Shown: piece after piece, positions 26,138 through 38,377 of the stretch
How positions within the stretch are numbered: the first letter of the stretch is position 1
Layout: each line of letters starts with the position of its first letter
The notes under the pieces: generated by a model
Seen by the model: only the letters and a program-made list of their open reading frames with translations
Databases searched by the model: none
What the model was told of the DNA's origin: nothing
From: Chloroflexota bacterium
GTDB lineage: Bacteria; Chloroflexota; UBA6077; CF-72
NCBI GenBank assembly: GCA_005883405.1
Contig: VBGG01000126.1
Coordinates: 1-38,739, forward strand
Direction of reading: 5' to 3'
DNA: 38,739 nucleotides
Translations under genes and position numbers: made by a program

Positions 26138-27339
26138 TGGCGAGGCTCGAGCTCGATCACCTGGTAAAGCGGTATGGCCGCGGTGGCGAGCCCGCCGTGC
26201 AGGACCTGTCGCTCGAAGTAAATGACGGCGAGTTCGTGTGTCTGCTGGGGCCGTCGGGCTGTGGCAAGACGACGACGCTGCGCCTGATCGGCGGGTTTCT
26301 CAAGCCCGACGCGGGCGACGTGCGCATCGATGGCACGAGCATCCTGAAAGAGCCGCCCGAGCGACGGCCAACGGCGATGGTCTTCCAGCGCTACGCGCTG
26401 TGGCCGCACATGACCGTGTGGGACAACATCGCTTTCGGCCTGCAGGTGCGCCGCCGGCCGCGTGATGAGATCGCCCGACGTGTCGAGGCGGCGCTCGAGC
26501 TGGTCGGGCTGCCAGCGATGGGCCGCCGTTATCCGGCTCAGCTTTCGGGAGGTCAGCAACAGCGCGTCGCCCTGGCACGGGCGCTGGTCCTCGAGCCGCG
26601 CATCCTGCTGCTCGACGAGCCACTCTCCAACCTGGACGCACAGCTGCGTGTGCATATGCGCACGGAGCTCACCGCCATTCAGCGCCGCGTGGGGATCACC
26701 ACGGTCTTTGTCACCCACGATCAGGAGGAGGCGATGTCCATCGCCGATCGGATCGCGGTGATGAACGCGGGAGTGCTCGAGCAGATGGACTCGCCCGAGG
26801 AGATCTACGCCCAACCCGCGACGCTGTTCGTGGCGACGTTCATCGGCACCATGAACCGTCTCGACGCCCACGTAGATGCCGGCTGGGTTCGAGCTGGCCC
26901 GTTCGTGGCGGCCTTGCCCGACATAGGTCGGCTGAATGCTGGTAGCGGCGCTAGCGTGGATGGCGCGCTGGTCGCGGGCGTGCGACCCGAGGACCTGGTG
27001 CTCGAGACAGCCGGGCAAGGCGTGCCCGCGCGCATCGACAGCGTGGTCGACCTCGGCCACTACCGCCGCGTGACGCTCACCGCGGAAGGCACCAGTCTGC
27101 TGGCATTTGTCCCGCGGTCGGAGCCCATTCCCACCGACCGCCTCACCGTCGCTCCCCGCCGCCTATTGCTGTACGCCGACGGTCACCTGCTGGCAACCAA
27201 CGAAGGCGGCGTGAAGCGCAGCGGGTCGAACGCTTCGGGATCGACGGGCGGCGGTTCGCCGTCGATCAGCGCCATCAGCAGCGCGATCGAGCCGGGCAAG
27301 GGCGCGATTCCGCTCGGCCCGTGGCCCGTCAGGAAGTAG
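26137..27339 (+). CDS. ABC transporter ATP-binding protein with TOBE domain; C-terminal ~45 aa appear acquired by readthrough into a remnant on the opposite strand
   Basis: GPSGCGKTTTLRLIGG, LSGGQQQRVALARALV, LLLDEPLSNLD, TVFVTHDQEEAMS. Confidence 0.92.
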   Translation: MARLELDHLVKRYGRGGEPAVQDLSLEVNDGEFVCLLGPSGCGKTTTLRLIGGFLKPDAGDVRIDGTSILKEPPERRPTAMVFQRYALWPHMTVWDNIAFGLQVRRRPRDEIARRVEAALELVGLPAMGRRYPAQLSGGQQQRVALARALVLEPRILLLDEPLSNLDAQLRVHMRTELTAIQRRVGITTVFVTHDQEEAMSIADRIAVMNAGVLEQMDSPEEIYAQPATLFVATFIGTMNRLDAHVDAGWVRAGPFVAALPDIGRLNAGSGASVDGALVAGVRPEDLVLETAGQGVPARIDSVVDLGHYRRVTLTAEGTSLLAFVPRSEPIPTDRLTVAPRRLLLYADGHLLATNEGGVKRSGSNASGSTGGGSPSISAISSAIEPGKGAIPLGPWPVRK

Positions 27340-27374: not shown

Positions 27375-27460
27375 CCTGCCCGCGGCCTATCCCCTCCGAA
27401 AGTGTCTAGCGACTGACATTCTGTCCGCCCGACGCCTCCGAGGCGAAGCGGTGCCCCACC

Positions 27461-27724
27461 AGAAGTTCGGCCGACAAGCCGCTTTCGGCACAAGACGCAG
27501 TCGGCCGACCTTCTTGTGACAGTTGGCCTAGAAGTTCGGCCGACAAGCCGCCTTTTCGGCACGAGTCGCAGGCGGCCGAACTTCTTTGACAGATTGGCCT
27601 AGTAACGCGGCCACCGAGATTTCGAGGCATTTCATACTTTTCGGCCGCGTTCCTAGGACCGCGGCCACCGAGACTCCGAGGCATTCACTACCTTTTCGGC
27701 CGCGGTCCTGGGCACTGTCACAGC
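27461..27724 (+). repeat. Compound palindromic repeat array H1a-H1b-H2a-H2b
   Basis: H1a 27461-27514, H1b 27530-27585 (AGAAGTTCGGCCG...CGGCCGAACTTCT), H2a 27599-27657, H2b 27652-27712 (CCTAGnnnCGCGGCC...GGCCGCGnnCCTAGG). Confidence 0.92.
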
Positions 27725-27785: not shown

Positions 27786-28505
27786 ATGAGCTGGGACGAG
27801 GCGTTCGCCGATCACTACGAGGAATGGTCGGCATCGATGACGGCCGACGTTGCGTTCTACGTCGAGCTGGCACGCGAGGCGAACGGGCCGCTGGTCGAGC
27901 TTGCCATCGGGAATGGGCGGGTCGCGATCCCCGTGGCGCAGGCGACGGGCCAGCGGGTTGTCGGCATTGACTCCTCGCCGGCGATGCTTGCGCAAGCCCG
28001 TGCCCGGGCGGCCAAAGCGGGCGTGCAGCTCGACTTGCGCGAGGGTGACATGCGGGATCTTGCGCTCGAGGAGCCGGCCGCGCTGATCTACTGTCCATTC
28101 CGGGCGCTCCTGCACCTGCCGACCTGGGCCGACCGCCGCCGTACCTTCGAGCGCGTTGCCGCCTCGCTCCGCCCTGAGGGGCGGTTCGCCTGGAACGCGT
28201 TTGCCTTCGACCACCGGATCGCCGCGCGCCTCGACGGCCAGCACCAGGAGAAGCCCGTCCCGCACACGATCCAATACTCGGTGGGCGACAACCGCATCGA
28301 CATCACGCTCGACGGCGGTGGGAAGAGCTCGCTGTGGCCGGCAACCAAGAACGAGTGGCTCGGGCTGCTCGACGTCGCCGGTCTCCAGGTGGAGGCGCTC
28401 TACGGCGGCTTCGCCCACGAGCCGTTTGCCGACGACAGCCAGGAATACGTGTTCGTCGCCCGCCGTCCTCGAGTGACGTTGCTGGTCTCAGCGGCGCGTT
28501 CTTGA
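27786..28505 (+). CDS. Class I SAM-dependent methyltransferase; last residues probably derived from a deletion junction
   Basis: LVELAIGNGRVAIPVAQATGQRVVGIDSSPAMLAQARARAAKAGVQLDLREGDMRDLALEEPAALIYCPFRALLHLP. Confidence 0.85.
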   Translation: MSWDEAFADHYEEWSASMTADVAFYVELAREANGPLVELAIGNGRVAIPVAQATGQRVVGIDSSPAMLAQARARAAKAGVQLDLREGDMRDLALEEPAALIYCPFRALLHLPTWADRRRTFERVAASLRPEGRFAWNAFAFDHRIAARLDGQHQEKPVPHTIQYSVGDNRIDITLDGGGKSSLWPATKNEWLGLLDVAGLQVEALYGGFAHEPFADDSQEYVFVARRPRVTLLVSAARS

Positions 28506-38051: not shown

Positions 38052-38255
38052 GCGCTCGCCGCGGTGGTCCACTACGTCGTCGTACTGCCCGTCTCCAAGC
38101 TGATCGAGCAGTTCAGTCCGCCGCCTGCCGCCGCCACGCGCGCGTGCCCGTTCTGCCTGAGCAAGATCCCCCTCAAAGCGCGACGCTACGCGTTCTGCAC
38201 CTCAGACGTAGAGGACAAGGTCCAGGCACTGATCGACCTGATGACGAGTGCCTAG
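38052..38255 (+). pseudogene. C-terminal remnant of a large-conductance mechanosensitive channel with zinc-ribbon tail
   Basis: ALAAVVHYVVVLPVSKLIEQFSPPPAAATRACPFCLSKIPLKARRYAFCTSDV; N-terminal TM1 region absent; stop codon lies inside the H2 repeat. Confidence 0.65.
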
Positions 38256-38377
38256 GAACGCGGCCGAAAAGTATGAAATGCCTCGAAATCTCGGTGGCCG
38301 CGTTCCTAGGCCAATCTGTCAAAGAAGTTCGGCCGCCTGCGACTTGTGCCGAAAAGCGGCTTGTCGGCCGAACTCCG
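38250..38377 (-). repeat. Compound palindromic repeat H2-H1, inverted copy of 27530-27657
   Basis: H2 38251-38310, H1 38323-38377; near-identical to the reverse complement of 27530-27657. Confidence 0.93.

Follow-up and report, generated by a model that had tools for sequence, protein, structure and literature searches.

Several kinds of mobile element share features with the locus described here. MITEs of DDE insertion sequences (IS5, IS481) are short, non-coding and present in many copies, with CTAG at both borders. The IS110/IS1111 bridge-RNA elements encode a re-programmable nucleic-acid guide. In the IS200/IS605 family a guide within the element pairs with target DNA and so determines where it inserts; the natural rule for this is 4 nt, longer pairing having been obtained only by engineering IS608 in vitro (PMC5934647). 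The engineered IS608 recognises 12-17 nt through pairing between the sequence 3' of its left-end hairpin and the target upstream of the cut; in native IS608 a hairpin blocks such extended pairing (PMC5934647). A direct precedent for guide pairing is also drawn from PMC6006769. REP sequences are defined as palindromes of 20-40 nt tagged with GTAG or CGTC (PMC3733652). Within the open-access literature, which is part of the whole, nothing was found that describes extended DNA-guide pairing in a natural element.

The window analysed here, a stretch of 38,739 nucleotides from a Chloroflexota bacterium (contig VBGG01000126.1), contains a nested pair of elements belonging to a family that is confined to one Chloroflexota genus. 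The unit of this family is gene-less and about 118-130 bp long, and consists of its own CTAG, a hairpin (H1), a linker of 10-16 nt of which the last 7 nt are the guide, and a second hairpin (H2). Read as its reverse complement, the guide matches the 7 nt of native DNA that follow H2. Since this makes the guide of each copy complementary to the DNA in which that copy has landed, the landing site appears to be selected by base pairing. We consider it fairly probable that this is a gene-less mobile family whose target is determined through pairing with the 7-nt guide, by way of a single-stranded DNA intermediate and with an HUH-type enzyme acting in trans. The complementarity at the H2 border is the main point of the locus, and was missed in the initial annotation.

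The nested pair in the window

The initial annotation described four tandem palindromes, two of the H1 and two of the H2 type. All four are present (Table 1), but they are arranged as one two-hairpin element nested in another. Joining position 27527 to position 27653 gives an uninterrupted unit of the ACCGCGG subfamily that matches the copies at loci L020 and L021, and at L010 there is a separate insertion at the identical internal CTAG position, a second nested case. Because the join restores a standard unit and L010 nests likewise, this is nesting and not a tandem array, and the tandem reading is ruled out. Element B has inserted at an internal CTAG of the older element A, and its target is made of element A DNA, namely the last 4 nt of the guide of A and the first 3 nt of H2b.

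Table 1. Features of the nested elements and of a second copy in the window
Feature	Position	Strand	Description or basis
Element A, left part	27459..27527	+	own left tetranucleotide CCAG (decayed CTAG), H1a, linker, and GGC, the first 3 nt of the guide
Hairpin H1a of element A	27461..27514	+	palindrome; fold
Element B, complete, within element A	27528..27652	+	own CTAG, H1b, linker, guide and H2a
Hairpin H1b of element B	27530..27586	+	palindrome; fold
Guide of element B, GGCCTAG (7 nt)	27596..27602	+	guide-flank pairing analyses
Hairpin H2a of element B, AACGCGG subfamily	27603..27652	+	palindrome; fold
Target of element B, CTAGGAC	27653..27659	+	guide of B pairs at 6/7 positions
Element A, right part	27653..27707	+	last 4 nt of the guide (CTAG) and hairpin H2b
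Hairpin H2b of element A, ACCGCGG subfamily	27657..27707	+	palindrome; fold
Target of element A, CTGGGCA	27708..27714	+	guide of A, GGCCTAG, pairs at 5/7 positions and one G-T
ACTGTCACA	27715..27723	+	reverse complement of the linker of A, TGTGACAGT
Second copy, AACGCGG subfamily, truncated left end	38256..38374	-	guide GGCCTAG at 38306-38312
Target of second copy, CTAGGCA	38249..38255	-	guide pairs at 6/7 positions

Element B is 125 bp, carries no gene, has an R1 match of 121.6 bits and is 97-98% identical to other copies in the genome. The gap holding the nest lies between an ABC-transporter ATPase gene ending at 27339 and a methyltransferase gene starting at 27786, and the fold of the nest region scores z = -5.8 relative to dinucleotide shuffles. 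The change on both sides of the stem between H2a and H2b (AACGCGG..CCGCGTT to ACCGCGG..CCGCGGT), to which attention had been drawn, was seen and is the difference between two subfamilies. H1 and H2 had been regarded as separable modules, which holds only in part. A single element has H1 at one end and H2 at the other, and the nesting makes them seem apart here, but H1-only, H1-deleted and H1-inverted derivatives do exist (L155, L156, L184/L186, L032, L034).

The symmetric flanks TGTGACAG/CTGTCACAG are present as described. They are an extreme instance of guide-target complementarity in element A, and may be what is left of an H1-linker in inverted orientation. The 9-nt match between TGTGACAGT and ACTGTCACA in element A is an oddity that exceeds the 7-nt rule; it is possible that ACTGTCACA, next to the target of A, is such a remnant, comparable to L032 and L034. 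At these two loci (C286 and C551 of the window's genome) an inverted H1 and linker lie beside H2, giving H1-linker-H2-linker'-H1' palindromes, possibly through insertion in the opposite orientation or inversion between CTAG sites.

Copies, covariation and borders of the family

A covariance model was built from 37 copies. Among the fetched loci, with overlaps removed, it identified at least 112 distinct copies in the genome of the window (G000), and at least 54 and at least 4 in two congeners (G001 and G002); these are lower bounds, as a limited number of candidates was scored per search. The G001-like contigs are assigned to the MAG 'Chloroflexota bacterium CP_BM_RX_R9_6'. The family is absent from 26 other genomes of the class, there was no match to it in plasmids, phages or viral contigs, and Rfam gave no family match at the gathering score. 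The subfamilies have H1 and the stem plan of H2 in common and vary in the H2 loop and stem bases, the subfamilies being AACGCGG, AAGGCGG, ACCGCGG, GACGCGG, AGCGCGG and AGGGGCGG.

Covariation is significant over the 37 sequences, with 8 significant pairs against 2.8 in shuffles and 24 cells changed on both sides against 3.5, values reached in 0/500 shuffles. Together with the copy number in G000, this bears out the earlier statement that the palindromes are not a random patch. The covariation is mainly in H2 and the foot of H2. Most changes in the decaying H1 stem go uncompensated (15 cells broken, 3 wobble, 3 compensated), so that no strong selection on the hairpins in place has to be assumed. 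Two groups of G001 copies depart from the usual H1. A sub-group at L182, L185, L188, L189, L190, L192 and L194 has a mini-H1 with no loop, for example CTAGAAGTTCGGCGCCGGCCGAACTTCTG, so that the H1 loop is either dispensable or lost; at L167, L173, L175, L176, L177, L179, L187 and L191 the right arm of H1 reads ..GGCCTGGATAAAACTTC, which disrupts its pairing. At L184/L186, in two near-identical contigs of the same genome, the H1 hairpin has been precisely lost and CTAG-G-CGACAGACTGCGCCTAG-H2 remains.

Selection on, or mobilisation of, a folded RNA or ssDNA had been proposed from the palindromes. That a folded form, probably single-stranded, is mobilised is supported by the dispersal of many copies, the nested insertions, the clean empty sites and the dependence of targeting on pairing. 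Several copies differ by 0-2 bases, guide and borders excluded, yet have unrelated flanks. The insertion at L099 is missing in G002 and G001, where an uninterrupted CTAT/CTAG is followed by the native GGCAT. The TAG stop of a reading frame forms part of this site, and the neighbours are presumably recR and ybaB, names read from the flanks. At L018 the insertion is within a gene, and its site matches ATAC-GCGGCGATC of G002 at every base of the alignment; congener counterparts of L029 and L164 can be aligned less exactly. In the empty-site comparisons the gain is the element and one CTAG only. It is well supported that the family is mobile and that insertion is clean and does not duplicate the target.

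CTAG is found at the right border of 83/138 copies and at the left border of 74/138. A right tetranucleotide other than CTAG tends to be complementary to the guide, and the left one usually differs from it, the left/right pairs including CTAG/CTAA (L160), CTAG/CCAG (L134, L108 and L131) and CTAG/CTGG (L106). For guides that are not CTAG, the exact complement is the right tetranucleotide in 25/62 and the left in 2/62, some rows being mis-registered. Because a non-CTAG right tetranucleotide tends to complement the guide and the left mostly does not, duplication of a CTAG target is ruled out. We infer from this minority of copies that the right tetranucleotide is that of the target and the left CTAG that of the element. 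The left flank has no base preference. A modest excess of insertions is seen at gene stop codons, with TAG in the CTAG (52/145 against 144/532 background CTAG sites in G000-G002). There was no replication-strand bias by local GC skew, of which these contigs may carry no usable amount.

Guide-target complementarity and its explanations

The base of H2 abuts the 7-nt target, usually CTAG and 3 nt, and the H2 stem thus runs on into native DNA. The complementarity is copy-specific, follows the guide of the subfamily and is already found in near-identical young copies. With the pairing register anchored on the H2 stem, and shuffled guide-flank partners as the control, the 23 copies of G001 pair at positions 5-8 in proportions of 0.96/0.74/0.65/0.43 against 0.50/0.36/0.36/0.26 for shuffled partners (0/5000). 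In G000 the pairing is likewise copy-specific, at positions 5-6. To leave out the effect of later correction, the comparison was limited to copies whose 8-nt guide is common to at least 3 copies, and these have 159 matches at positions 5-8 against 131 +/- 5 in shuffles (0/20000).

Examples of guides and their targets are TGGCCTAG with CTAGGC, GGCCCTAG with CTAGGG(C), GCGCCTAG with CTAGGCG, TGGCCTGG with CCAGGC and GGCCCCAG with CTGGGGC. The C:G ratio at position 6 is 16:8 for guide TGGCCTAG and 0:8 for guide GGCCCTAG (p = 0.002). Compared with the genomic bases that follow CTAG, 66 copies match at position 5 in 59 cases (15.4 expected), at position 6 in 41 (21.4), at position 7 in 37 (20.7) and at position 8 in 14 (14.9). 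The match at position 8 is at background level, and there is therefore a cut-off after 7 nt. In young copies, 6% or less from their subfamily consensus, positions 5, 6 and 7 match in 26/28, 20/28 and 17/28. That guide and target pair, with targets following the guide across subfamilies, is well supported.

The guide itself changes about 4x faster than the rest of the element in young copies, with 15/252 substitutions against 64/3962 elsewhere (p = 5e-5), and the changes are often toward the copy's own flank (L130, L134, L102, L106). Two pairs of contigs in G001, L173/L064 and L177/L066, have equal flanks and different guide and H1 bases; these are strain variants of one insertion and can serve to follow how a guide changes at a fixed site. 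Snap-back copying of long flank stretches was considered as a general rule and rejected, as the pooled pairing stops at position 8.

Private guide changes of this kind, in single copies of young subfamilies, would be accounted for if the element inserted at CTAG only and the H2 stem was later extended into the flank, by template-switch correction or by selection for a longer hairpin. The longer pairing in G001, with its older copies, than in G000 is also in keeping with later extension. It is nevertheless rather unlikely. Guides common to at least 3 copies already adjoin matching flanks, near-identical copies match the first base in 26/28, the flanks are native in empty sites, and the largely uncompensated decay of H1 indicates that in-place hairpin selection is weak. 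Against guide-directed insertion, which we prefer, it may be said that the rewritten guides of some copies could have arisen by template switching in a quasipalindrome after insertion. An ordinary MITE of an IS5- or IS481-like DDE transposase, with a duplicated CTAG target and imperfect terminal inverted repeats, is very improbable. The present elements are like such MITEs in being short, non-coding and numerous with CTAG at both borders, as most copies have, and the outer stems of H1 and H2 are alike, with CTCG found on both sides of L010. The border counts for non-CTAG guides, on the other hand, show that the two sides are not duplicates, and flank pairing over 3 nt beyond CTAG plays no part in DDE transposition; the internally palindromic hairpins are a further difference.

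The 7-nt guide within a structured two-hairpin sequence, and the IS110 and reverse-transcriptase genes that occur in all three genomes, could suggest that the target is recognised by RNA, in a mini IS110 with a bridge RNA or through a group II-like RNA. A re-programmable guide encoded in the element is common to this family and IS110/IS1111. However, here it is a single guide outside the hairpin loops that pairs with one side of the junction, with no signal in the left flank. The element has no recombinase and no core dinucleotide, and it lacks the pair of guide-bearing loops through which IS110/IS1111 elements recognise either side of target and donor. No H1/H2-like sequence lies beside the fetched IS110 or reverse-transcriptase genes, and the genome with the fewest copies of the element, G002, has the most IS110 matches (12), so that an RNA-guided system is highly unlikely. 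Membership of the REPINs, to which the initial annotation had pointed as a hypothesis, is not supported, and it is very doubtful that these are REP or REPIN repeats spread by a RAYT (TnpA_REP). Like them, the family consists of dispersed, mostly intergenic, high-copy palindromes with a tetranucleotide at the hairpin foot (PMC8266576, PMC3733652, PMC6006769). Unlike them, the foot is CTAG and not GTAG or CGTC, the hairpins are 50-60 nt long and complementarity extends 7 nt into the flank. A REPIN is formed by two inverted copies of one REP, whereas H1 and H2 have dissimilar sequences and loops, play different roles and follow each other in a fixed head-to-tail order. A RAYT-like Y1 protein was looked for in the three genomes and not found.

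Relation to IS200/IS605 and the search for an enzyme

The preferred, guide-directed reading has the element moving as single-stranded DNA. On the bottom strand, the target 5'-NNNCTAG would be cleaved on the 3' side and linked to hairpin H2', and the other end would close with H1' and the element's own CTAG. The cleavage site of the left end would then be external to the element and that of the right end internal, as in the IS200/IS605 layout, and guide and target would pair 3' of the hairpin at the left end. An HUH-type enzyme, either lost or not assembled, would act in trans, and guide changes would re-target the element. The family is taken to be a non-autonomous transposon of the single-strand type, the enzyme and the strand being presumed.

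As in IS608 and ISDra2 of IS200/IS605, there is a hairpin at each end, subterminal hairpins being found here at both, and DNA-DNA pairing with the element's guide appears to pick the target. In the bottom-strand reading, insertion is also 3' of a short target, with no duplication and a seamless empty site. The pairing of the 3' flank of the left-end hairpin with a target 5' of the cut is analogous to that engineered into IS608, here in a natural element. The family differs from IS200/IS605 in having no tnpA, a CTAG core and a length of 118-130 bp, in a natural guide of 7 nt that directly adjoins a hairpin of 50 nt, and in the variation of the guide among copies together with the target. No classical 4-nt guide of the IS608 type was identified 5' of the hairpin. 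A guide was identified beside H2 only and none for H1. It is 5' of H2 on the top strand, but on the bottom strand, the one that fits the target data, it is 3' of H2'.

Across the three genomes a single Y1 transposase was seen, at L080 (C183 of G000), and it is part of an ordinary IS605 that has tnpA and tnpB and ends unlike those of the present family. There is no Y1_Tnp (PF01797) in G001 and G002; the genomes are incomplete, fragmented MAGs, so that a missing gene carries limited weight. There was no Y2/IS91 match, control genomes giving no match either. No autonomous copy with matching ends occurs at 14 partial-copy loci, a non-exhaustive set. The missing enzyme and autonomous copy, like the lack of a strand bias, count against the preferred reading. 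Loss of the enzyme from G001 would be unsurprising, since the copies there are old and divergent. Membership of REPINs or of IS200/IS605 is not established, because the defining transposase was looked for and not found; the family works like IS200/IS605 and is filed neither there nor as a REPIN.

Nature seems to have run the re-targeting over 100 times in one genus. As guide and target can be read in every copy, guide length, mismatch tolerance and guide evolution can be measured directly from sequence. This suggests a compact, gene-less, programmable donor, and the enzyme is worth finding. We regard it as possible, though not likely, that the family represents a distinct class of gene-less DNA-guided transposons, in which a 7-nt guide next to a terminal hairpin picks the insertion site by pairing over its full length and is rewritten during or after insertion, with an enzyme other than the known Y1 transposases. 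If true, this would be a distinct DNA-guided class in which one family spreads to ever new addresses. A young subfamily of 118 nt is found in G000 (L130, L134, L136, L138, L139, L140, L144, L145, L150), several copies of which are 0-2 bases apart, and is the best material for an active system.
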